Below, one piece after another: positions 1-11,792 of a stretch of 64,000 nt of DNA. Origin of the DNA: Limnohabitans sp. Hippo3 (GTDB lineage Bacteria; Pseudomonadota; Gammaproteobacteria; Burkholderiales; Burkholderiaceae_C). Position 1 is the first letter of the stretch. Each line of letters opens with the position of its first letter. The stretch covers positions 620,001-684,000 of the forward strand of contig NZ_NESF01000001.1 of NCBI RefSeq assembly GCF_003063665.1, written 5' to 3'. The position numbers and the translations under genes were made by a program. The notes beneath the pieces were generated by a model. It did not search any database and was not told the DNA's origin. It saw only the letters and a list, made by a program, of their open reading frames with translations.

Positions 1-534
1 GTACAGGCGACCGGCTGGGCCCATGAAGCGGCAGTCGATCAGTTTCACGTTGGCGGCTTTCTCAGCCTCGTTGGCCACCAGCAGCGCATACGACGAGGTG
101 GTCATCTCCATGATGTAGAGCGACTCGCCGGGCAAGAGCATGCTGCCCGATTTGCTGCGGTTGATCAAAAACGCGTGGTAGCCGTCGACCCGGTCAATCA
201 CTTTGGAGGCCAGGATTTCGGGCTTGAGCACGCTTTTCTCGCTCACACCCATGGCTTCGAGCACGGCCGCACCCGCCGACTTGACGGACGAGGAGGACTG
301 GCCGTGGAACTCCAGATAGCCGAACTGACGCTCGACCACCAGGTTGCCGGGCTTGACGTTGTCGTGCTTGAGCGCGATGTCGGTCAGCCACTCGATGTCC
401 ATGCCGGGGGCGACTTCGATCACCATGGCGGCGTCGTTGTGGCGCGGCAGAAAACCACGGGCGGTGGAGCCCAGCAAACACATCAATTGAGGCTGCAAGC
501 GGTCCAGAAAAATGTAACTGCGCAAAGTGGACAT
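1..534 (-). CDS. Bacterial microcompartment shell protein, tandem-domain (BMC-T) type, C-terminus cut by window edge
   Basis: The visible 178 codons encode a shell protein made of two BMC folds, roughly residues 5-90 and 105-178. The second holds the family hallmark YALLVANEAEKAANVKL followed by a glycine-rich GRLY turn. BMC-T proteins build trimeric pseudohexamers in the facets of polyhedral microcompartments and often have a gated pore. The start ATG sits 9 bases after the stop of the acylating aldehyde dehydrogenase, so the two are almost certainly cotranscribed. Family members are usually about 200-215 residues, so only the last 25-35 residues should be missing. No BMC-H or BMC-P shell gene is present; I expect them further left. 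Family assignment is from pattern recognition, and the permutation type cannot be decided here. Confidence 0.85.
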   Translation of the reverse strand, partial: MSTLRSYIFLDRLQPQLMCLLGSTARGFLPRHNDAAMVIEVAPGMDIEWLTDIALKHDNVKPGNLVVERQFGYLEFHGQSSSSVKSAGAAVLEAMGVSEKSVLKPEILASKVIDRVDGYHAFLINRSKSGSMLLPGESLYIMEMTTSSYALLVANEAEKAANVKLIDCRFMGPAGRLY

Positions 535-543
535 GGGGGGCTT

Positions 544-2049
544 TCAGCGAAGGTGTTCGAGTTCTTCCTGCACGATGCGCAGGACGGTGGCCTGAAGTTC
601 AGGCGTGAGGGTGGACAACTGGCCTGCAGCCGCTGGCACACCCGAAGACAGTGCGGCACCCGAGGCCATGGCCCCGGCCCAGCCACCCGGCAGCGGAAAG
701 GCGACGCGCTTCCAGTTGACCAGCAGCTCGGGGCCGACGTTGCAGTCCACCGAGCTTTTGCCTGCATACCCCGTGCCGATGGTGAAGGTGTAGGGCAAGC
801 CGGTGTTGGCGCCCGTGCTGTCGTGCACCGTGGAGCCGTTGACCACCACGCGGTAGTAGTCGAGCGCTGCGCCCCAGACCACCGCTTGCTCGGCGCTGGC
901 GGTATGGATGCTCGAGGTGTGGCCTGCGCCGCTGTGCTGCAGCATGAGGCGCGCCACGTCGACGGCCTGGTCCATGCCCGGCACCACCACACAGCCCAGA
1001 ATGGGCGAGAGCTTTTCCTTCAGCAGCACATGGCCCGGCTGCGGGTTGGCGATGGGGCAAACCAGCGCCTGGCAGTCGCGCGGCACCTGCACACCAGCGG
1101 CCTGGGCGATCTCAAACGCGGGGCTGCCCACCACCTTGCCGTTGAACTTGCCGCCGGGAAAGGCGTGGTGCTGGATCTTTTGTACTTCTTCCTCGGTGCA
1201 CACATGCGCACCCTGGCGGGCCAGGGCTTGTTGCATCTGTGCCGCGATGCCCGCGTGCAGCATGAGCACCGAAGGCGCCGAGCAGGGGCTGCCGTGGTCA
1301 AAGTTCTTGGCGGTGACGATGGTCTGTGCAGCGGCTTCGAGGTCGGCGCTGGCGTCCACATAAATCGGCACATTGCCCGAGCCCACGCCAATCGCGGGGT
1401 TGCCCGAGCCATAAGCCGCACGCACCATGGGCGTGCCGCCGGTGGCCAAAATCACGTCGGTGCGGGCGTCGCGCATCAGCGCGCCTGTGGCCTCGACCGT
1501 GGGGCGGGTCAGGATCTGCAGCGCATGGGCCGGGCCGCCGGCTTTTTCAATGGCCGCCTGCAATTCATTTGTCACGGCGGTGCAGCAGCCCAAAGCCACC
1601 GGGTGCGGCGAGATGACCAGCGCATTGCGCGTCATCAGGCACAGGATGGTCTTGAAGATGATGGTGGCCACCGGCGAGGTGGAGTTGGACAAGCCCACCA
1701 CCACACCGGCCGGGCGGCCAATCTCGACGATGCGCAAGGCATCGTTGCGGCGCACGCCGCCCAGGGCCACCTTGTCCCAGGCGTTGGGCGTGAGGGTGCA
1801 GGCGATCTGGTTCTTGGCGATCTTGTCGGCCACTTTGCCAATGCGGCTTTCGCGCACGGCCCACTCGGCATAAAACTCGGCACGCGGCAGCAAGGCCGCA
1901 GCCACTTCTTTGGCCACGCGCTTGGCTTCTTCTGGGGTCCACTGCGCGAGCGTGGCCGCGGCCTGCCGGGCGCGGCCCAGCAAGTCGCGGGCCTCCTGCA
2001 AGGCGGCCAGGTCGTGGTCGGCCAGGTCGATGGGGTTGCTTGAACTCAT
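544..2049 (-). CDS. CoA-acylating aldehyde dehydrogenase with C-terminal microcompartment-targeting helix
   Basis: A 501-residue enzyme of the EutE/PduP/SauS class that oxidises an aldehyde to an acyl-CoA with NAD+. The catalytic cysteine is C256 (context DHGSPCSAP). The family motif SNSTSP lies at about 121-126 and a cofactor-binding GSGN at about 224-227. After the core fold ends near residue 453 there is a Gly/Ala/Ser/Pro-rich linker (455-480), then a predicted amphipathic helix (482-501, TPELQATVLRIVQEELEHLR). That is the arrangement of encapsulation peptides that place enzymes inside microcompartments. It lies 19 bases after the dioxygenase gene and 9 bases before the shell gene. The natural aldehyde is inferred to be the dioxygenase product. 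A cytosolic sulfoacetaldehyde dehydrogenase is the main alternative, but the shell neighbour argues against it. Confidence 0.88.
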   Translation of the reverse strand: MSSSNPIDLADHDLAALQEARDLLGRARQAAATLAQWTPEEAKRVAKEVAAALLPRAEFYAEWAVRESRIGKVADKIAKNQIACTLTPNAWDKVALGGVRRNDALRIVEIGRPAGVVVGLSNSTSPVATIIFKTILCLMTRNALVISPHPVALGCCTAVTNELQAAIEKAGGPAHALQILTRPTVEATGALMRDARTDVILATGGTPMVRAAYGSGNPAIGVGSGNVPIYVDASADLEAAAQTIVTAKNFDHGSPCSAPSVLMLHAGIAAQMQQALARQGAHVCTEEEVQKIQHHAFPGGKFNGKVVGSPAFEIAQAAGVQVPRDCQALVCPIANPQPGHVLLKEKLSPILGCVVVPGMDQAVDVARLMLQHSGAGHTSSIHTASAEQAVVWGAALDYYRVVVNGSTVHDSTGANTGLPYTFTIGTGYAGKSSVDCNVGPELLVNWKRVAFPLPGGWAGAMASGAALSSGVPAAAGQLSTLTPELQATVLRIVQEELEHLR

Positions 2050-2068
2050 GTCAGAGGGCGTCCCGGGT

Positions 2069-3127
2069 TCAACGGCGTTGCGCTGCGGCGGCCACGGCGT
2101 TCAGGTCCACACTTTCCAGCGCGCTGAAAATCGCTTCCACCGCCTGCTTTTCACGCGGACTGGCCGCCTGCATGCGGGTGGTGTCCAGCAATTGGCGCAT
2201 CACCGAGGGCTGGCCACCTGTGCCGGCGCTGCTGGCGGCACCGGGGTTGTAGGTGGGCACAAAGCTGCCGCAGGTCATGCGCTGACCAGCGCGGTAGTGC
2301 GGGGCGTAATCGAACACGGCGTAGTGCTGCGTGGCGCAGTTGTCCCACATGGCGACCGAGTCCTTTTCCCAGCGGAAGCGCACCATGAACTCGGGCTTCT
2401 TGATCCACTCGTAGAGCATGTTCAGCAAGGCTTCGGACAAGTCCATGTGCATGCCCAGCAGGCGCTTGGTCCAGATCGAGTTGACGAACAGGATCTTGCG
2501 TCCGGTGTAGGGGTGCGTGATCACGGCCGGGTGCGTCACTGTGGGCGTGTTCTCGATCATCTTGCACTCTTGGGCATTGGCCGTGACCATCATGCCGCTC
2601 TTGGCCGAGGCGCGCTGTGCCAGGCGCTCGTGCACGTTGATGCGGCGGAAATGCCAGGGCAGATCGTGGTCGGCCTGCAGGCCTTCGAGCATCTGCTGCA
2701 TGCCGGGGTTGAGCGCATCGAACGCGGCGCCCGCGTGCATCCACATGGTGTCACCACCCGAAGGGGGCAAGTCGGTGATGCGCAGGATGGACACCATGTT
2801 GGGTTTCTTGCGGAAGGTCACGTCGGTGTGCCAGCGGTCAGTCTCGGGGGCTTCATGGCCCTGGTTGGAAATCAGCTGGATTTGAGGGTGGCCTTCTACA
2901 TGCGGGAAGAACTCGTGCTGCTCCATCTCGCCAAAGTTCTGGCCCAGGCGGATGTAGGACTCGGGCTTCAGGGCCTGCTTGCGGAAGAACACCACGCCGT
3001 ATTGCCACAGCGCCTTCTTGATTTCTTCGTAGACGTCCTCTGAGCGGGTGTTGTTCAGGTCCACGCCGCTGATCATGCCGCCGATGGTGGGGGTCAACGG
3101 GTCGACCTGGATGTGACGGAAGCTCAT
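2069..3127 (-). CDS. TauD/TfdA-family Fe(II)/2-oxoglutarate dioxygenase, probable sulfonate dioxygenase
   Basis: A 352-residue cytoplasmic dioxygenase that would hydroxylate its substrate next to the leaving group with O2 and 2-oxoglutarate. In E. coli TauD this releases sulfite and an aldehyde. Iron ligands are H100, D102 (WHTDVTF) and H268 (ATQHYAVFDY). R279 falls where TauD R266 binds 2-oxoglutarate. The TauD sulfonate-pocket residues H70, V102 and R270 correspond to H71, V103 and R283, with identical spacing, while TauD Y73 is a Phe and F206 a Trp. The start was moved 13 codons inside the longest frame because AAGGAG stands 7 bases before this ATG. Substrate is inferred: taurine, isethionate or another short alkanesulfonate fits best, but related enzymes act on non-sulfonates. 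Confidence 0.88.
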   Translation of the reverse strand: MSFRHIQVDPLTPTIGGMISGVDLNNTRSEDVYEEIKKALWQYGVVFFRKQALKPESYIRLGQNFGEMEQHEFFPHVEGHPQIQLISNQGHEAPETDRWHTDVTFRKKPNMVSILRITDLPPSGGDTMWMHAGAAFDALNPGMQQMLEGLQADHDLPWHFRRINVHERLAQRASAKSGMMVTANAQECKMIENTPTVTHPAVITHPYTGRKILFVNSIWTKRLLGMHMDLSEALLNMLYEWIKKPEFMVRFRWEKDSVAMWDNCATQHYAVFDYAPHYRAGQRMTCGSFVPTYNPGAASSAGTGGQPSVMRQLLDTTRMQAASPREKQAVEAIFSALESVDLNAVAAAAQRR

Positions 3128-3162
3128 TCTTGTATCTCCTTGATGTGACAAAACAGCCCGGC

Positions 3163-3918
3163 TCATTGCCAGTGCAGCAAACGTTTTTCGAGCCAGGTCA
3201 TGGTGCGCACCACGGCCACGCCCAGGAGGGCCAGCACCAGCAGCAGCGCCATCACGCCATTGACTTCAAAGGTGGAGCCCAGGTAGGCCAGGGACTGACC
3301 CAGGCCTTTTTCCGAGGCGATGATTTCGGCCCCGATCACGCCCAACATGGCGTAGATCAGGCCCAGGCGCAGGCCCGAGAAGATGACCGGCACCGCGCCG
3401 GGCAAAGTCACCTGGAAGAAGGTGGTCACGGCGCTGGAACCCAGCGTCTTGCACAGCGTGACGTGGTCCTGACTCACGCCGCGAATGCCGGCCACCGTGC
3501 TGGACAGCACGATGAAAAAGGTCAGGCTGCAACCGACGGCGATCTTGGAGCCCAGGCCCAGACCAAACCACAGGATGAACAGCGGCGCCAGCGCAATGCG
3601 GGGCATCACGTTCATGGCGTTGAAGTAGGGGTCGAGGAATTTCTCGACCTTGGGGAAAGCCACAAACAGCAGGCCCACAGCCAAGGCGGCCGAGCTGCCC
3701 AAGGCAAACGAGATCAGCGTGCCCGCCATGGTCCAGCCCAGATCGGTCCAGAGCTTGCCGGTGGCGATGTTGCTCCACAAAAATTTGATGACGCCGCTGG
3801 GTTGACCCACAAAGGTGGGGTCCAGCCAGCGGTTGAAGGTGAGCCACTCGCCCAGCGCCAGCAGCACGGCGATGAACACGATGTGGGCAGCGCCCCAGCG
3901 GAATGTGTCAGCCTTCAT
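3163..3918 (-). CDS. ABC transporter permease, SsuC/TauC (nitrate/sulfonate) type
   Basis: A 251-residue inner-membrane permease of the family that imports taurine, alkanesulfonates, nitrate or pyrimidine precursors. There are about six hydrophobic segments. The EAA-type coupling loop is degenerate and lies around residues 160-180. The chosen ATG overlaps the end of the ATPase gene by 11 bases and has GGAG just upstream; a longer frame begins 17 codons earlier without a good ribosome site. Directly followed by the dioxygenase gene (35 bases), which ties uptake to the first catabolic step. Confidence 0.85.
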   Translation of the reverse strand: MKADTFRWGAAHIVFIAVLLALGEWLTFNRWLDPTFVGQPSGVIKFLWSNIATGKLWTDLGWTMAGTLISFALGSSAALAVGLLFVAFPKVEKFLDPYFNAMNVMPRIALAPLFILWFGLGLGSKIAVGCSLTFFIVLSSTVAGIRGVSQDHVTLCKTLGSSAVTTFFQVTLPGAVPVIFSGLRLGLIYAMLGVIGAEIIASEKGLGQSLAYLGSTFEVNGVMALLLVLALLGVAVVRTMTWLEKRLLHWQ

Positions 3919-4708
3919 GTTTGCTCCAGCCAGATTCCAGGTGCGACCAGAGTTGCGCATACAGCTCATGGAAATGCGGGTCTTTTTGCAGCTCGCGGAT
4001 CGAGCGCGGGCGTGGCAGGTCGATGGCGATGTCGGCCACGATGCGCCCGGGGCGCGAGGTCATGACCACCACCCGGTCGGACACGGCCACGGCCTCGGAC
4101 AGGTCGTGCGTGACAAACAGCACCGACTGTTGGTGCTGCTGGCACAGGCGCAGCAACAGGTCTTCGAGTTGCAGCTTGGTTTGCGCATCCAGCGCGCCAA
4201 AGGGCTCGTCCATCAAGAGCAGGGGCGAGCCCATGGCGAAGGTTCGCGCCAGGGCCACGCGCTGGCGCATGCCGTGCGACAGGGCCTTGGGCAAAGCGTT
4301 TTCAAAACCGGCCAGACCGACTTCCTGCAGCATGGCGCGGGCGCGCTCTTCGGCTTGGGCACGCGGCACACCGCGCACTTCCATGCCGAACATGGCGTTG
4401 CCCAAAGCGGTTTTCCAGGGCATGAGACTGTCGCGGGCCAGCATGTAGCCGACCTGCGGGTTGCCCTGGCGCGGCGCTTGCCCATTGACTTGCAAGCCGC
4501 CTTGGCCGGTGTGCGGCACCAGCCCGGCGGCCAGGTTCAGCAGCGTGGTTTTGCCACAACCGCTGGGACCCACCAGGGAAACAAACTCGCCTTGACGGAC
4601 ATGCAGCGTCACATCGGACAGCACCTGCTTGGTGCCATCGAAGCTCAGGTGCACGCCATCGGCAGCGATGGCCAGAGACGTTGCGCTCAATTCAGGTGCT
4701 CCACTCAT
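3908..4708 (-). CDS. ABC transporter ATP-binding protein, SsuB/TauB type
   Basis: A 266-residue nucleotide-binding subunit. It has Walker A (GPSGCGKTT), a Walker B/D-loop block (LLLMDEPFGALDAQ) and the H-loop histidine (FVTHDLSEA). The signature reads ALSHGMRQRV where relatives have LSGGM, so a normally conserved Gly is His. It powers the permease encoded immediately downstream, whose start it overlaps. The Q-loop region shows the usual DSLMPWKT. The product should sit on the cytoplasmic face with the permease dimer. Overall similarity to TauB/SsuB is clear; the transported compound is inferred from the neighbouring TauD-like enzyme. Confidence 0.88.
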   Translation of the reverse strand: MSGAPELSATSLAIAADGVHLSFDGTKQVLSDVTLHVRQGEFVSLVGPSGCGKTTLLNLAAGLVPHTGQGGLQVNGQAPRQGNPQVGYMLARDSLMPWKTALGNAMFGMEVRGVPRAQAEERARAMLQEVGLAGFENALPKALSHGMRQRVALARTFAMGSPLLLMDEPFGALDAQTKLQLEDLLLRLCQQHQQSVLFVTHDLSEAVAVSDRVVVMTSRPGRIVADIAIDLPRPRSIRELQKDPHFHELYAQLWSHLESGWSKHEG

Positions 4709-4741
4709 GCAAACAGTCGGTCAGGTCGGTGGCTGCAGCAA

Positions 4742-5746
4742 TCAGCGCAATTGCAAGATCTTGCTGGTGTCGAACTTTTTGTCGATCTGCTGGGTGTTGT
4801 GCAGGTAGTCGGCCGCGTGCTGCAAGGCTTTGGGGTCGAGCGAAAAACGCACGCCGCTGATCGAGTTGCGCAAGGAGGCTTCGACCGCTGCGGCACCGGC
4901 AGGGCCGTCGATCTTGAAGGTGTCGTTGATCACCTTGAGCACGGCCGCAAAGTTGGCCGGGTTCTGGGCAAAGGCCTCGGCCTCGCGCATGGCCTTGGCA
5001 AAAGCGTCGAGCGCGGCACCGTTCTTTTGTGCGAAGTCACCGCGCACCGTCATCGGGCCAGAAGCGCCGTTGAGCTTGGTGATGGCCTCTGGGCCTTCAC
5101 CCTTGCGCGGGTCCACGATCACACGGCACACCTTCATGGCCGAGCAGAAGCCATCCATGGGCGCGAACAGCATCACCGCGTCGATTTGCTTGTTGGCAAT
5201 GGCGGGCAAGGCGGTATTAGGGGCACCCACGGGCACGATGGTCACATCGCTGCCGGACATGCCAGCACCCTTGAGCATGTCGAGTAACTGGAATTCAGCG
5301 CCGGAGCCACGGGCTGTCACACCCACTTTCTTGCCCTTGAGGTCGGCCATCACGGCGGGGTAGCCTTTGGCGGCGTTGGGTGTTTCGGTGTGGGCACCGG
5401 CCATCAAAAAGAAGATGTTATCGCGTGCCGCGTTGCCGATGATCTTGAGGTCAGCGCCTTTGTTGGCGGCCTGGATCACCACTTCAGACGGACCGAAAGC
5501 GATGTCGATGTCACCGGCCAACAGCGTCTGGATGCCCAAGGGGCCTGCGGGGATGGTCTTGAGCTCGCACTTGATGCCGTTTTTCTCGCAGTAACCGTTG
5601 GCAGCAGCCACGCGGGTGATCATGTTGCCAAGACCAGGGTAATCCTGGATGCGCAGGGTGGTGGTCTGCGCCATGGCAGTGGTGCCCAGGGTCAGGGCCA
5701 ATGCACCGATGGCGGTGCGCAAGAAGGCGGGGGCTGAAAAGGTCAT
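4742..5746 (-). CDS. Periplasmic substrate-binding protein, NMT1/TauA/SsuA-like
   Basis: A 334-residue exported binding protein and the first gene of the microcompartment/dioxygenase operon. A Sec signal peptide (residues 1-27, hydrophobic FLRTAIGALALTLG, cleavage after AMA) precedes a type II periplasmic-binding fold. Segments such as LLAGDIDIAFGPSE and KGKKVGVTARGSG are typical of NMT1-like proteins. GGAG six bases before the ATG at 5746 decides the start; an upstream in-frame ATG gives nine extra charged residues. Spacing to the ATPase gene is 33 bases. Likely delivers the sulfonate (or other small organic anion) to the SsuBC-type importer. Confidence 0.85.
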   Translation of the reverse strand: MTFSAPAFLRTAIGALALTLGTTAMAQTTTLRIQDYPGLGNMITRVAAANGYCEKNGIKCELKTIPAGPLGIQTLLAGDIDIAFGPSEVVIQAANKGADLKIIGNAARDNIFFLMAGAHTETPNAAKGYPAVMADLKGKKVGVTARGSGAEFQLLDMLKGAGMSGSDVTIVPVGAPNTALPAIANKQIDAVMLFAPMDGFCSAMKVCRVIVDPRKGEGPEAITKLNGASGPMTVRGDFAQKNGAALDAFAKAMREAEAFAQNPANFAAVLKVINDTFKIDGPAGAAAVEASLRNSISGVRFSLDPKALQHAADYLHNTQQIDKKFDTSKILQLR

Positions 5747-5887
5747 GTCGTCTCCGTTGTTTGAACGTTGCACTTGCTCTTAAGTTCAACTGGCACGATT
5801 TAAGCCCCTGTGACACACTCGAATTGTTTCTGATGTGACAATTTAGGGGAAAGCACTCAAAATAATCCGAGACACTCCTGCGACGAC
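5747..5887. promoter_or_regulatory. Divergent control region between the microcompartment operon and the Crp/Fnr-type gene
   Basis: This 141-base divergent spacer must hold both promoters. It contains an inverted repeat AATTGT-N10-ACAATT (5822-5843), whose 22-base span equals a Crp/Fnr-family site. TGTGACA occurs twice as direct copies 25 bases apart (5809-5815 and 5834-5840), and there is a wider inverted repeat TTGAAC-N17-GTTCAA (5761-5789) close to the SBP start. No convincing sigma-70 boxes were found. The 22-base palindrome is the best candidate operator for the adjacent regulator; this is inference. Confidence 0.5.
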
Positions 5888-6622
5888 ATGGCCCCGCCCT
5901 CCTCCTCCAAACCTGCACCCAAGCCCACAGCAAAACGCCAGATGGCCAAGCGCCATGCGGTGTTCAAGGCACTGGACGCCGATGTCTTCACACAGGCCTG
6001 GGCAGAAAACTCGGCCCTCACGACACGCTCTGCACAAGCCCTGCAAAGTGTGGGGGTGGTGCGCCCATGGCGTGATGGCCAAGTCGTGCTCAGCCGCGGC
6101 CAACCCACCTCGACAGCCCTGCTGCTGATGAAAGGCCGTTTGCGTGTGAGCGTGACCACGCCCGAAGGCGAGGAGCAATTGCTGCGCTGGATGCTGCCCG
6201 GAGAAATTTCGGGCCTGAGCTCGGTGTTTGCTGAAACCACTTACCCGGCCGACCTCGTGTCGGTAGGGCCCAGCCAGGTGCTGCACATTGAGCGGACCCG
6301 CTTGATCGACCTGATCAGTCGCGATCCTGTGGTGGCCGTGGACCTGTTGCGCATCCTGGGTTTGCGCATCAACCAGTTGTTTGACACCCTGGCGGACCAA
6401 GGCATGCACAGCCTGGAACAACGCGTATGGGCCGCCCTGGAGCGCATCGCCAAATTCAACAGTGTGAAAGTTCCCGACGGCGTGATGCTGCGCGTGAGCC
6501 AGACCGACCTGGCGCAAGCTGCATCGGCTTCGCGCCAGCGCGTGAACCAGCAACTGCGCCACTTCCAAGACCAAGGCCTGATCCGCCTGGGCTATCGCAA
6601 CATTGTTTTGCTGCGCCAATGA
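5888..6622 (+). CDS. Crp/Fnr-family transcriptional regulator
   Basis: A 244-residue regulator. After a basic, Pro/Lys-rich N-terminal tail (1-25), a cyclic-nucleotide-binding-like beta-barrel spans about 50-150 (GQPTSTALLLMKGRLRVSV, LPGEISGLSSVF). A long dimer helix follows, then a Crp-type winged helix at about 195-240 with recognition helix SASRQRVNQQLRHF. No Fe-S cysteines of the Fnr kind are present, so the effector is unknown. It is transcribed divergently from the SBP-dioxygenase-microcompartment operon across 141 bases containing a Crp-sized palindrome, so I infer it controls that operon and probably itself. The ribosome site is weak. Confidence 0.85.
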   Translation: MAPPSSSKPAPKPTAKRQMAKRHAVFKALDADVFTQAWAENSALTTRSAQALQSVGVVRPWRDGQVVLSRGQPTSTALLLMKGRLRVSVTTPEGEEQLLRWMLPGEISGLSSVFAETTYPADLVSVGPSQVLHIERTRLIDLISRDPVVAVDLLRILGLRINQLFDTLADQGMHSLEQRVWAALERIAKFNSVKVPDGVMLRVSQTDLAQAASASRQRVNQQLRHFQDQGLIRLGYRNIVLLRQ

Positions 6623-7321: not shown

Positions 7322-9685
7322 TCATTCCACCCGAGTCACCCGGTTCGGCTTGAAGCCCAAATCCGCCACTTTGCCTTTTTTGGCGCGGGCGGTTTTGGCG
7401 TTGTTCAGACTGCGGATTTCGAGCGTTTCTTCGCGCTCCTTGCCGCCCCGGCCAATGCCAGCGATCTTGACGCTGCGGGTGTAGGCCGCTGCGCCCGCCA
7501 GGGTGTCCTTGGCTTCAAGGTCGATGAGCATCAGGCCCCGGCCGCCTTTTTCCATCGTTTTGAGTTCGCTGATCTCAAAGGTCAGCACGCGGCCGCCTGT
7601 ACTGGCGCAACACACGCTGTTGGCTGCGGGCATGGGCTGTTTGTCGGCGGGCACAGTGGCGCTGGAGCCGCTCACGTGACTGGGGGCGCAGACGGTTTCG
7701 CCGTCGCCCAGGCTGATGAAGGCCTTGCCCGCTTTGTTGCGCGAAATCATATTCTCGACCGAGGCCATGAAACCGTAGCCGCCTGAGCCGCTGAGCAGCA
7801 GCGTGGCGTGGGCCGGGCCTGCAAAGTAGTGGGCTAGCTGAGTGCCAGCTTCCAGTTCGATGAGCGTGGTCACGGGTTGGCCGTCGCCACGCGCCCCGGG
7901 CAAGGTGGCCACGGGCACGCTGTAGACGCGGCCATTGCTGCCAAAGATCAGCAGCGTGTCCACGGTGCGGCATTCAAAGGTGCCGTAAAGGCCGTCGCCC
8001 GCCTTGAAGGCGAAGCCCGTGGCGTCGTGGCCGTGGCCGGTGCGGGCGCGCACCCAGCCTTTTTCGGACACGACCACCGTCACGGGTTCATCCACCACCT
8101 TCACTTCGGCCACGGCTTTTTTCTCTTCCTGAATCAGCGTGCGGCGCGGATCGGCAAAGGTCTTGGCATCGGCTTCGATCTCCTTGATCATCAGGCGACG
8201 CAGCGCAGCGGGGCTGCCCAGAATCTCTTCGAGCTTGCCCTGCTCTTCACGCAGTTCGCTCAGTTCTTGTTCGATCTTGATGGCCTCCAGACGGGCCAGT
8301 TGGCGCAGGCGAATCTCCAGGATGTCTTCGGCCTGGCGGTCTGTGAGCTTGAAGGCTTCGATCAGTGCAGGCTTGGGCTCGTCACTGTGGCGGATGATGC
8401 GGATCACCTCGTCGATGTTGAGCAGCACCAGCTGGCGCCCTTCCAGAATGTGGATGCGGTCGAGCACTTTGTTCAGGCGGTGCTGGCTGCGGCGGGTGAT
8501 GGTGGTCTGGCGGAAACTGATCCACTCCACCAGCATCTGGCGCAAGGACTTCTGGATGGGCTTGCCATCGATGCCCACCGATGTCATGTTGATCGGTGCA
8601 GACGTTTCCAAGCTGGTGTGGGCCAGCAAGGCGGTGATGAGTTCCTGCTGTTCGATGCGGCTGGTCTTGGGCTCGAACACCAGGCGCACGGCGGCGTCTT
8701 TGCTCGATTCGTCACGCACCACGTCCAGCACGGCGAGCATGCTGGCTTTGAGCTGCAGCTGGTCGGTGCTGAGCGCTTTTTTACCGGCCTTGACCTTGGG
8801 GTTGGTCAGCTCTTCGATCTCTTCGAGCACGCGCTGCGAGCTGACGCCTTGCGGCAACTCCGTCACCACCAACTGCCACTGGCCACGGGCCAGGTCTTCG
8901 ATCTTCCAGCGGGCACGCACCTTGAGGCTGCCGCGCCCGGTGCGGTAAGCGTCGGCAATGTCGCTGGCCGGGCTGATGATCTGACCGCCACCGGGGTAGT
9001 CCGGGCCAGGAATGATGGCCATCAGCTCGCTGTCGCTGAGCTTGTCGTTTTTGATCAGGGCCACGCAGGCGTCGGCCACTTCGCGCAGGTTGTGGCTGGG
9101 GATCTCGGTGGCCAGGCCCACGGCAATACCGCTCGCGCCGTTGAGCAGGGTGAAGGGCAAGCGGGCGGGCAACTGACGCGGCTCTTCGGTGGAGCCGTCG
9201 TAGTTGGGAATGAAGTCCACCGTGCCCATGTCGATCTCGTCGAGCAGCAAGCTGGTGATGCGCGATAGCCGCGCTTCGGTGTAACGCATGGCGGCTGCAC
9301 CATCGCCGTCACGCGAACCAAAGTTGCCTTGGCCGTCGATCAGCGGGTAGCGCTGCGAAAAATCCTGCGCCATGCGCACCAGCGCGTCGTATGCCGCCGT
9401 GTCGCCGTGCGGGTGGTAGCGGCCGAGCACATCACCGACCACGCGGGCGCTTTTGACGGGCTTGGCCGCAATGTTGTTGTTGGGGCCGCTGTACGACAAA
9501 CCCATGCGGTCCATCGAATACAGAATGCGCCGCTGCACCGGTTTTTGGCCGTCGCACACATCGGGCAAGGCGCGGCCTTTGACGACGGACAGCGCGTATT
9601 CCAAGTAGGCCCGCTGGGCATAGGCGCCGAGGTGGTCGCCTTCGGGGGCTGCGTCGGTGACGGGGGTTAACAAATCAACAGTCAT
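7322..9685 (-). CDS. parC: DNA topoisomerase IV subunit A
   Basis: A 787-residue breakage-reunion subunit that, with ParE, decatenates daughter chromosomes. Near the N-terminus it has [17 protein letters not shown] and the active-site tyrosine in [11 protein letters not shown]. The C-terminal part (about 500-787) is the degenerate beta-pinwheel, including GRGLMLIDL. It lacks the GyrA-box and is shorter than GyrA, and the nearby parE supports ParC over GyrA. The quinolone-determining loop reads [17 protein letters not shown]. Length is normal for betaproteobacterial ParC. The gene is separated from parE upstream by 124 bases. Confidence 0.95.
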
Positions 9686-9809
9686 GGCGTACTTTCAATG
9701 ACGGATTCAAATTTCTTTCAACCGACCGGTTGAACGCTCTGACCCGGGAACCATTCGGCCCAAGTCAAGCCGGCATGGATGGCCGCGTTCGCGGCCATGA
9801 CAATGCCCA

Positions 9810-11792
9810 TCACACATCGATTTCGATGCTGTCGCCGTGCAGTTCCATCAGCTCACGGCGGGCGGCGGCTTCGCCTTTGCCCATGAGTTGAGTCATGAGG
9901 CTTTCGGTGCCCGCGTTGTCAAGCGGCCCCAGCTCGATGGGCAGCAGGCGGCGGGTGTCGGGGTTGAGCGTGGTGTCCCACAGCTGTTCGGCACTCATCT
10001 CGCCCAGACCCTTGAAGCGGCTGATGCTCCAGCCGCCTTCTTTCACACCGTCTTTGCGCAGCTTGTCGATGATGGCGGTGAGTTCGCCCTCGTCGAGCGC
10101 ATAGGCTTTGGACGCGGGCTTTTTGCCGCGTGCAGGGGCATCGACCCTGAACAGCGGCGGACGCGCCACATACAGGTGGCCCGCCTCGATCAGCTTGGGG
10201 AAGTGGCGGAAGAACAGCGTCAGCAGCAGCACCTGAATGTGCGAGCCGTCCACGTCCGCATCGCTCAAGATGCAGACCTTGCCGTAGCGCAGATTGCTCA
10301 TGTCGGGGTTGTCGCCCTGCCCATGCGGGTCCACACCGATGGCCACCGAGATGTCGTGGATTTCGTTGTTGGCAAACAAGCGGTCGCGGTCCACTTCCCA
10401 AGTGTTGAGCACTTTGCCGCGCAGGGGCAAGATGGCCTGGGTTTCCTTGTTGCGGCCCATCTTGGCGCTACCGCCCGCCGAGTCGCCCTCGACCAGAAAG
10501 ACCTCGTTGTCTGCGATGTCGCGGCTTTCGCAATCGGTCAGCTTGCCGGGCAGCACGGCCACGCCCGAACTCTTGCGCTTTTCGACTTTTTGACCGGCCT
10601 TCTGGCGGGTTTGTGCGGCCTTGATGGCGAGCTCCGCCAGCTTTTTGCCGTAGTCCACATGCTCGTTGAGCCACAACTCCAAGGCCGGGCGCACAAAACT
10701 GGACACCAGCCGCACCGCGTCGCGTGAGTTCAGGCGCTCCTTGATCTGGCCCTGGAACTGCGGGTCCAGCACCTTGGCGCTCAGCACATAGCTGGCGCGG
10801 GCGAAGACGTCTTCGGGCATGAGCTTGACGCCCTTGGGCAGCAAACCATGCAGCTCGATGAAGCTTTTGACGGCGGTGAACAGGCCATCGCGCAAGCCGC
10901 TGTCGTGCGTACCGCCTGCGCTGGTGGGGATCAAATTCACATAGCTCTCGCGCACCGGCGCACCGTCTTCGGTGAAGGCCACAGCCCACGCAGCGCCCTC
11001 CCCTTCGGCAAAGCTTTCACTGTTGCCGTCGGCGAAGCCTTCGCCTTCAAACAAGGGGATGACCGGATCGCCGGTCAGGGTCTGCGTCAGGTAATCGCGC
11101 AGACCGGCTTTGTATTGCCACTGCTGGGTTTCCTTGGTTTTTTCATTCACCAAGGTCACCGTCACGCCCGGCATGAGCACGGCTTTGCTGCGCAGCAGGT
11201 GCGTCAGCTCGTTCATAGGCAGGGCGCTGGATTCGAAATATTTGGCGTCTGGCCAGGCGCGCACGGTGGTGCCCTGTTTGCGGTCGCCCTCGCCTGCGGG
11301 GCGAGCGACCAGCGGCTCGGTCACGTCGCCGCCCGAAAACACCAGCGTTGCCACTTGGCCTTCGCGGTAGCTCGTGGCCTCCAGGCGTTTGGACAGCGCA
11401 TTGGTCACCGACACGCCCACGCCGTGCAAACCGCCCGAGAAGCTGTAAGCCCCGCCCTTGCCCTTGTCGAACTTGCCGCCCGCGTGCAGGCGGGTAAACA
11501 CCAGCTCGATCACGGGCGCTTTTTCTTCGGGGTGCAGGCCAAAGGGGATGCCACGGCCATCGTCTTCGATGCTGACCGAGCCGTCGGTGTGCAGGACAAC
11601 TTTGATTTTTTTGCCGTAACCCGCCAACGCCTCGTCGGCAGCATTGTCCAGCACTTCCTGAATGATGTGCAGGGGGTTGTCGGTGCGGGTGTACATGCCC
11701 GGGCGTTGCTTGACGGGCTCCAGGCCCTTAAGGACGCGGATCGAGCCTTCAGAGTACTCGTTCGAGGTTTTGACAGTGGATTGGGTGGCCAT
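9810..11792 (-). CDS. parE: DNA topoisomerase IV subunit B
   Basis: A 660-residue ATPase subunit of topoisomerase IV. The GHKL nucleotide site is visible (QEVLDNAADEALAG, DDGRGIPFG, GGLHGVGVSVTNALS). The TOPRIM domain carries LVEGDSAGGSA and SDADVDGSHI. The C-terminus ends in the usual RRELMELHG segment. Same strand as parC and probably cotranscribed with it or read from a nearby promoter, given the 124-base gap. The upstream 100-base spacer separates it from a divergent MFS gene and should hold the promoters for both. Confidence 0.95.
   Translation of the reverse strand: MATQSTVKTSNEYSEGSIRVLKGLEPVKQRPGMYTRTDNPLHIIQEVLDNAADEALAGYGKKIKVVLHTDGSVSIEDDGRGIPFGLHPEEKAPVIELVFTRLHAGGKFDKGKGGAYSFSGGLHGVGVSVTNALSKRLEATSYREGQVATLVFSGGDVTEPLVARPAGEGDRKQGTTVRAWPDAKYFESSALPMNELTHLLRSKAVLMPGVTVTLVNEKTKETQQWQYKAGLRDYLTQTLTGDPVIPLFEGEGFADGNSESFAEGEGAAWAVAFTEDGAPVRESYVNLIPTSAGGTHDSGLRDGLFTAVKSFIELHGLLPKGVKLMPEDVFARASYVLSAKVLDPQFQGQIKERLNSRDAVRLVSSFVRPALELWLNEHVDYGKKLAELAIKAAQTRQKAGQKVEKRKSSGVAVLPGKLTDCESRDIADNEVFLVEGDSAGGSAKMGRNKETQAILPLRGKVLNTWEVDRDRLFANNEIHDISVAIGVDPHGQGDNPDMSNLRYGKVCILSDADVDGSHIQVLLLTLFFRHFPKLIEAGHLYVARPPLFRVDAPARGKKPASKAYALDEGELTAIIDKLRKDGVKEGGWSISRFKGLGEMSAEQLWDTTLNPDTRRLLPIELGPLDNAGTESLMTQLMGKGEAAARRELMELHGDSIEIDV

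Follow-up and report, generated by a model that had tools for sequence, protein, structure and literature searches.

What is a dioxygenase of the TauD family doing beside the shell genes of a bacterial microcompartment? The question is raised by a 64,000-nucleotide stretch of Limnohabitans sp. Hippo3 (contig NZ_NESF01000001.1, positions 620,001 to 684,000; referred to here as the window), which opens inside an operon of ten genes. As read from the open reading frames (ORFs) of the contig, these genes specify the three parts of an importer, a TauD-family Fe(II)/2-oxoglutarate dioxygenase (TauD), an aldehyde dehydrogenase (AldDH), an accessory protein that we call X, and four shell proteins. The explanation that we favor, and that we hold to be fairly probable, is that this is a shell operon of the RMM type, described from Rhodococcus and Mycobacterium, with a TauABC-like importer and the dioxygenase as its front end. 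In this account, the C-terminal tail would bring the dioxygenase into the assembled shell, where the enzyme would cleave a small organosulfonate, releasing sulfite and an aldehyde that the AldDH would convert to acyl-CoA.

Gene content and shell type of the operon

Six of the ten genes lie on the minus strand of positions 1-5773. A periplasmic binding protein of the NMT1/SsuA type (4742..5773; PF09084, 73 bits) is followed by a TauB-like ABC transporter ATPase (3908..4708; PF00005, ABC_tran), a permease related to SaoP, SsuC and TauC (3163..3969; PF00528, BPD_transp_1), and the TauD-family dioxygenase, the likely signature enzyme (2069..3166, with a likely start at 3127; PF02668, 197 bits against a cut-off of 27). 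Next come an AldDH of the CoA-acylating type with a C-terminal linker and tail (544..2049; PF00171, Aldedh, 78 bits against 23) and the 5′ part of BMC-T1, a double-layer shell protein resembling CcmP and MSM0275 (1..534, starting at 534 and ending outside the window at G000:C1:619920; BMC model, 33 bits against 24.5). A reading made earlier from the sequence alone had described these six genes as one head-to-tail operon, and the assignments, now backed by Pfam, the order and the spacing, with the overlap of the ATPase and permease genes and gaps of 35, 19 and 9 bases, proved correct. The same reading had predicted that further shell genes would be found to the left of the window, accompanied by a phosphotransacylase and an alcohol dehydrogenase. 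The shell genes are indeed there, and the condition that this reading had named for its own refutation, their absence, does not hold. In genome numbering, where window position 1 is G000:C1:620001, the minus strand of G000:C1 carries X (618958-619923), BMC-P (618692-618961), BMC-H (618353-618625) and a second BMC-T, BMC-T2 (617658-618323), with 4-base overlaps at BMC-T1/X and X/BMC-P and then gaps of 66 and 29 bases. The two enzymes, on the other hand, did not appear. A genome-wide search gave no match to the PduL-type phosphotransacylase family PF06130, and the ten operon genes, where an alcohol dehydrogenase was sought, do not include one; within that scope the complete metabolosome core is lacking. 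PF01515 has two matches in the genome, in open frames of 803 and 772 amino acids that we take to be malic-enzyme fusions. Because the genome has no PduL-type phosphotransacylase and the operon no alcohol dehydrogenase, we propose that 2-oxoglutarate, CoA and NAD would pass through gated BMC-T pores.

The closest natural relatives of the shell proteins among solved structures are mycobacterial. They are MSM0275 for BMC-T1 (5l39, 240 bits), MSM0271 for BMC-T2 (5suh, 243 bits), MSM0273 for BMC-P (5l37, 54 bits) and, among natural proteins, MSM0272 for BMC-H (5l38, 119 bits), an engineered tandem fusion (6ner) scoring higher. The PDB entries label MSM0275 and MSM0272 as RMM shell proteins, and MSM0271 and MSM0273 presumably belong to the same mycobacterial locus. 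The Pfam BMC model does not reach BMC-T2, the assignment of which rests on a CcmP match under the cut-off and on MSM0271. Both BMC-T proteins retain an ERQFG motif, of which the Glu and Arg are, we assume, the pore gate of such proteins. The operon thus has the shell set of the RMM type, two double-layer BMC-T proteins, one BMC-H and one BMC-P, and the block order AldDH, BMC-T, X, BMC-P, BMC-H, BMC-T is that of plasmid pRHL2 of R. jostii RHA1, where a hypothetical protein takes the place of X and an aminotransferase gene follows. (On pRHL2, at L062:14001-19490, the block of BMC-T, hypothetical protein, BMC-P and BMC-H is present twice with identical protein accessions.) Identities to the R. 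jostii proteins are 41% for AldDH, 60% for BMC-T1, 41% for BMC-P, 75% for BMC-H and 54% for BMC-T2, as compared with 34, 45, 32, 72 and 34% for a Methylibium BMC locus of another build. Taken by itself, BMC-H is not diagnostic, given that its identity to a Methylibium EutM (72%) is almost as high as that to its R. jostii counterpart (75%).

X of the window has no match to the R. jostii hypothetical protein, and two of its relatives match it weakly (L050, 27% over 82 amino acids, E 6e-4; L040, E 0.002). X has three parts, namely a helix-like stretch at the N-terminus, a middle region and, at the C-terminus, a conserved motif. Most Limnohabitans-type copies contain a SnoaL domain, which is absent in L012, L022, L026, L040 and L050-L053, and the core is retained without this optional domain or the cysteine-rich stretch (L003:18958-19923 and related loci). 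Outside these loci, the sole indication of a relationship is the PduM-like match of the L040 copy, under the cut-off at E 0.0098. The ten operon genes, to which this search was confined, include no component of the RMM front end for amino-alcohols (phosphotransferase, aminotransferase, short-chain dehydrogenase, permease). Taken at the level of sequence, the operon would be an RMM chassis in which TauABCD-like genes stand in for that front end.

The arrangement recurs. A TauD search with one genome per species yielded 36 loci, most of which carry the title of a Limnohabitans or another member of the Comamonadaceae, and AldDH and BMC-T1 follow TauD in 32 of them, so that the association of these genes exceeds chance. 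The four exceptions are two loci with contigs that end within TauD (L025, L041) and two, L035 and L036, that have TauD and importer genes and no AldDH or shell gene in the following 10 and 5.4 kb, respectively. BMC-H was found in 28/36 loci, and the misses other than L035 and L036 run off the contig (L013, L021, L025, L032, L037, L041). One locus, L031, is titled as an Akkermansia muciniphila metagenome-assembled genome, with TauD-to-shell genes 88-100% identical to those of the window; we regard it as a wrong label or a chimera. Outside the operon, no gene family was common to more than 6 of 20 compared loci, except an ORF antisense to BMC-H. Carriage on plasmids was considered and dropped, as no TauD match at E 1e-60 was present in 72,556 plasmid records.

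Chemistry and substrate of the dioxygenase

The dioxygenase is 38% identical to E. coli TauD, with H99, D101, H255, R266, H70 and R270 conserved. The iron and 2-oxoglutarate ligands H99, D101, H255 and R266, the last of which we take to be the 2-oxoglutarate ligand, are kept in 15/15 family rows of the alignment. H70 and R270 are kept in all 15 rows as well, and the position of D94 remains acidic; the available text of PMC9304159 gives H70 and R270 as the taurine-binding pair of TauD. The best solved structural match is a taurine dioxygenase (214 bits). Since the anion-binding residues are kept and the taurine-amine pocket is partly replaced, the substrate is likely a small anion, most simply a sulfonate, and not necessarily taurine. 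As for the next step, the best models of the AldDH are acylating aldehyde dehydrogenases (355, 342 and 276 bits, all short of their cut-offs), and the catalytic Cys is retained, aligned to the Cys of 5j78.

A number of observations weigh against the sulfonate part of our explanation. The taurine dioxygenase model gave 259.5 bits, below its cut-off of 313, and in the taurine pocket N95 is replaced by Thr and N97 by Arg in 15/15 family rows, and Y73 by Phe in 14/15 and by Ile in one, so that the combination specific to TauD, the equivalog score together with the amine pocket of D94, N95 and Y73, is not found. The pair H70 and R270 occurs also in L055, a distantly related member of the TauD family from this genome, and is, therefore, no proof of sulfonate binding. 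The AldDH reached 276 bits against the 600 of the equivalog for SauS, the acylating sulfoacetaldehyde dehydrogenase. No SorA-type sulfite dehydrogenase was evident in the genome, of which the single PF00174 match is a protein that presumably resembles MsrP/YedY; the sulfite might, therefore, be assimilated. Finally, the predicted model of the dioxygenase is poor (mean pLDDT, the predicted local distance difference test, of 41.6), as is a second model (mean 56.5), and we gave up reading the substrate from structure because both were too poor.

The importer has the same character. The binding protein gave 119 bits with SsuA_fam against a cut-off of 163.5 and is 24% identical to E. coli TauA. The top NCBIfam model of the ATPase is the taurine ATP-binding subunit, under its cut-off, with 41% identity to E. 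coli TauB, and the permease ranks SaoP, SsuC and TauC, each under its cut-off, with 28% identity to E. coli TauC. The importer and TauD alike thus missed the cut-offs of all curated models shown. The sequence-only reading had named sulfonate-type substrates and the release of sulfite, a claim that goes further than these missed cut-offs and the partly replaced taurine-amine residues establish.

One could, therefore, envision a dioxygenase in the same compartment that acts not on a sulfonate but on some other small anion, for instance a phosphonate or a carboxylate ether, and supplies an aldehyde to the AldDH all the same. The missed cut-offs would suit such an enzyme, and RdpA-type aryloxyalkanoate dioxygenases match the enzyme of the window nearly as well (188 bits) as taurine dioxygenase does. 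The pocket is reshaped, with I83 replaced by Gln as well as N97 by Arg in 15/15 rows and F206 by Trp in 14. In two shell-less relatives, the place of AldDH and shell is taken by a class V aminotransferase (L035:9962-12289 and L036:3129-5456; best solved match 3ke3), with an importer and TauD approximately 70% identical to those of the window, which may be a clue to the aldehyde or oxo-acid that is formed. (We attempted to deduce the substrate from the genes downstream of the shell-less TauDs; only these two loci, with their aminotransferase, were informative.) However, H70, kept in TauD, is absent from the RdpA row, the best solved match and the top model of the ATPase are both of the taurine kind, and the operon layout follows tauABCD. 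We consider a non-sulfonate substrate unlikely, although it is the alternative that deserves the most attention, and we continue to favor an organosulfonate.

The C-terminal tail and the site of the reaction

In the alignment, the C-terminus of the dioxygenase is about 55 residues longer than that of E. coli TauD and consists of a variable linker followed by a conserved tail (2069..2242 on the minus strand, the tail proper at about 2069-2200 including the stop codon). We consider the tail, which is conserved in shell-linked TauDs, a likely encapsulation peptide. Such peptides are described in the available part of PMC12339742 as short helices on disordered linkers, and helices were predicted here for residues 329-334, 337-351 and 355-364 with moderate pLDDT (block means 69, 71, 63 and 54). 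The AldDH, too, ends in a linker and tail, by which it would be enclosed.

The distribution of the tail is what ties the dioxygenase to the shell. Among the 36 loci, 31 of 32 shell-linked TauDs have it, and so do those of L050-L053; L025, L041 and L043 were left out of these counts because the contig or the fetched stretch ends before a shell could appear. In the shell-less L035, L036 and L049, TauD stops soon after the catalytic domain and the tail is absent. Local scores of the window's tail were 75-175 against seven other shell-linked TauDs (L028, L030, L040 and L050-L053), where the highest of 500 shuffles for any of them was 50, and 13-25 in the three shell-less ones. The catalytic domains follow a different order, given that the tailed L050-L053 are 53-55% identical to the window and the tail-less L035, L036 and L049 are 71, 70 and 60% identical. 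In a tree that takes E. coli TauD and L055 as its outgroups, the shell-less rows are nested among the shell-linked ones with modest support and long outgroup branches (90/92 on the common branch of the shell-less rows, 80/53 for L050, L051 and L053), and tail and shell, therefore, seem to have changed together. As judged from these comparisons, the tail follows the shell rather than the closeness of the catalytic domain, and enclosure of the dioxygenase in the shell is well supported. A methyltransferase-like protein on an 812-base contig (P0004) also gave a 95% match to the TauD tail and is probably an assembly chimera.

Wider samples agreed with this association. In 90 genomes of the genus, a TauD profile at E 1e-60 matched 50, of which 28 had a full-length tailed match (638-659 bits), and one more, G810, has a contig-edge fragment with the tail. 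The other matches (208-266 bits) end at or before model position 316, and those that reach 314-316 cross a stop codon. BMC domains were found in 31/90 genomes, namely in 29 of the 29 with a tailed TauD as compared with 2 of the 61 others (Fisher p 1e-21, a value inflated by relatedness). One of the two, G842, has this AldDH-shell block too, on the short contig L068; its genome is 82% complete, and TauD may be missing from the incomplete assembly. In the other, G848, short contigs (L066, L067) hold a BMC locus of a different kind that comprises several BMC genes; we take it to encode a PduS-like protein as well, and it may be contamination. In a family sample of 399 genomes (threshold E 1e-80), TauD was found in seven, comprising the genome under study, one of the same genus, L050-L053 (55-57% identity) and L049 (59%), and all but L049, which has no shell gene within the 17 kb fetched, have the shell. 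In L050-L053, TauD is accompanied by AldDH, BMC-T1, a short X, BMC-P, BMC-H and BMC-T2, and the importer genes lie on the opposite strand beside a LysR-type gene. BMC-T1 matched 27/399 family genomes, six of them at 65-100% and with a second BMC-T, all six with TauD; the 21 single matches at 42-47% look like other types. At the limits used, TauD matches among the genomes sampled from the order (399) and from the class (369) were confined to the genome under study and G070, both of this family. On the strength of the shell genes to the left, the tail, and the counts of 29/29 in the genus and 6/6 in the family, the part of the sequence-only reading that stands is that of a microcompartment operon in which every class of shell protein is represented and TauD is likely the enclosed aldehyde-forming enzyme.

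One alternative scenario is that the dioxygenase remains in the cytosol, where it merely feeds a shell that holds the AldDH or is a co-regulated, sulfur-supplying neighbor of an ordinary RMM-like compartment. E. coli TauD, as we understand it, functions without a shell, and shell-less relatives exist in L035, L036 and L049. In addition, a shuffle test did not show amphipathicity of the tail, as the helical moment was not above shuffles in three of four TauDs (p 0.46, 0.34 and 0.57; p 0.04 in L053) and only one of three AldDH tails was clearly above them (p 0.05, 0.015 and 0.13). Other points weigh against our own explanation: the tail helices come from a model that is otherwise poor, the shell-linked TauD of L037 has a short, unclear tail with a score of 39 against a shuffle maximum of 40, and the co-occurrence counts are drawn from related genomes. 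Against a cytosolic enzyme, the tail tracks the shell and not the relatedness of the catalytic domain, the ten operon genes include no other candidate for forming the aldehyde, and every RMM-type shell genome of the family sample carries TauD. We, therefore, consider a cytosolic dioxygenase improbable and enclosure the better account. A true RMM compartment for amino-alcohols, with the kinase and aminotransferase genes elsewhere in the genome, would fit the RMM-like shell, AldDH and block order but is very improbable as judged from the operon itself, because in R. jostii the block is flanked by genes for a phosphotransferase and an aminotransferase, and here TauD precedes it in two diverged clades. 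Two further ideas were rejected. The tail and the co-occurrence speak against a taurine dioxygenase operon of the ordinary kind that merely adjoins a shell unrelated to it, and the ten-gene inventory against a carboxysome, in spite of the matches of BMC-T1 and BMC-T2 to the CcmP model under its cut-off.

Proposed front-end exchange, described relatives and significance

The importer is less constant than the genes that follow it. The binding protein is 87-91% identical to that of the window in 8/36 loci (L007, L016, L018, L020, L023, L024, L025, L034), 46-47% in 22 and 52-74% in five, with none seen in L039, and TauD is at least 89% identical in the 30 loci of the first two groups. The importer thus seems to have been exchanged against a constant gene block. 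Divergent from the operon lies a gene for a Crp-like regulator (5888..6622, plus strand; assigned from its ORF and protein sequence), a relative of which stands beside the operon at 73-86% identity in 28/36 loci and at 31-48% in seven (L028, L030, L035-L037, L040, L041), and was not seen in L039. The protein has no cysteine and is, therefore, not an iron-sulfur sensor of the FNR type. Between the regulator and importer genes is a 22-base palindrome, AATTGT-N10-ACAATT (5822..5843), which is the single match in the 64-kb window and had none in 100 shuffles. It was found in 26/36 loci, always between the regulator and binding-protein genes and with both importer variants, and is missing in L019, L020, L028, L030, L035-L037 and L039-L041. 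It falls within a conserved intergenic block and is a candidate site, likely the operator of the divergent regulator. Further to the right, the two long minus-strand ORFs at 7322-11792 presumably encode ParC and ParE (topoisomerase IV).

How does the operon compare with systems already described? E. coli tauABCD shares with it the importer and dioxygenase genes in tauA-B-C-D order, the iron and 2-oxoglutarate ligands and H70/R270, and differs in the taurine-amine residues and in lacking a C-terminal tail and, over the 6 kb shown, any gene for an AldDH or a shell protein. Known metabolosomes mostly use B12 or glycyl-radical chemistry, and the isethionate microcompartment of Bilophila depends on an anaerobic glycyl-radical enzyme. 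Cleavage of a sulfonate at the shell would yield an aldehyde and sulfite in both Bilophila and Limnohabitans, by a radical enzyme in the former and by a family dependent on O2 and 2-oxoglutarate in the latter. The RMM/Aaum loci of Rhodococcus and Mycobacterium are alike in their two double-layer BMC-T proteins, BMC-H, BMC-P, accessory protein, AldDH and block order; there, kinase, aminotransferase and amino-alcohol enzymes stand where the TauABCD-like front end is found here, in Burkholderiales. According to the available text of Axen et al. 2014 (PMC4207490), RMM loci likewise have no obvious enzymes for recycling CoA and NAD.

The sequence-only reading knew of no described microcompartment with a TauD-family signature enzyme. 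For TauD itself, this agrees with the main text of the catalogues. The available main text of the 2021 catalogue (PMC8217296) contains none of the terms TauD, pfam02668, dioxygenase, taurine, sulfonate, ketoglutarate or Limnohabitans and has one oxygenase passage, on ARO; that of the 2014 catalogue (PMC4207490) names no TauD-like type, and the MCPdb paper (PMC8007038), as far as available, mentions neither taurine nor dioxygenase. The combination of TauD with an RMM block, therefore, appears to be new as judged from these main texts. An oxygenase as such is not, since the actinobacterial ARO type already uses a ring-cleaving dioxygenase. In the available part of PMC10470539, an O2-using dioxygenase is proposed as the enclosed signature enzyme of ARO, paired with an aldehyde dehydrogenase and bearing an extension only on BMC-linked copies, in all of which ARO resembles the Limnohabitans operon. 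It differs, on the same source, in its pfam02900 dioxygenase, an AldDH that is independent of CoA and has no encapsulation peptide, a simpler shell and an aromatic substrate; the only oxygenase of our operon is of PF02668. A dioxygenase in a compartment thus has a precedent and the RMM chassis is known, and it is the front end that is new.

We give about even odds to the broader proposal that these loci represent a not yet described functional class of microcompartment, an aerobic, O2-consuming organelle, in which an enclosed Fe(II)/2-oxoglutarate dioxygenase desulfonates organosulfonates, the front end having been exchanged and the shell, AldDH and accessory block of RMM retained. Such an organelle would take in 2-oxoglutarate and O2 and would give off succinate, CO2, sulfite and acyl-CoA. 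Its shell would have to pass O2, 2-oxoglutarate, CoA and NAD, and would confine the aldehyde, and perhaps sulfite, in aerobic plankton. The tail of TauD would be a targeting signal open to direct testing, and the RMM block would be a movable chassis to which front ends that make aldehydes in different ways can be fitted. Should a sulfonate be the substrate, microcompartments would be tied to the aerobic turnover of organosulfur in lakes.

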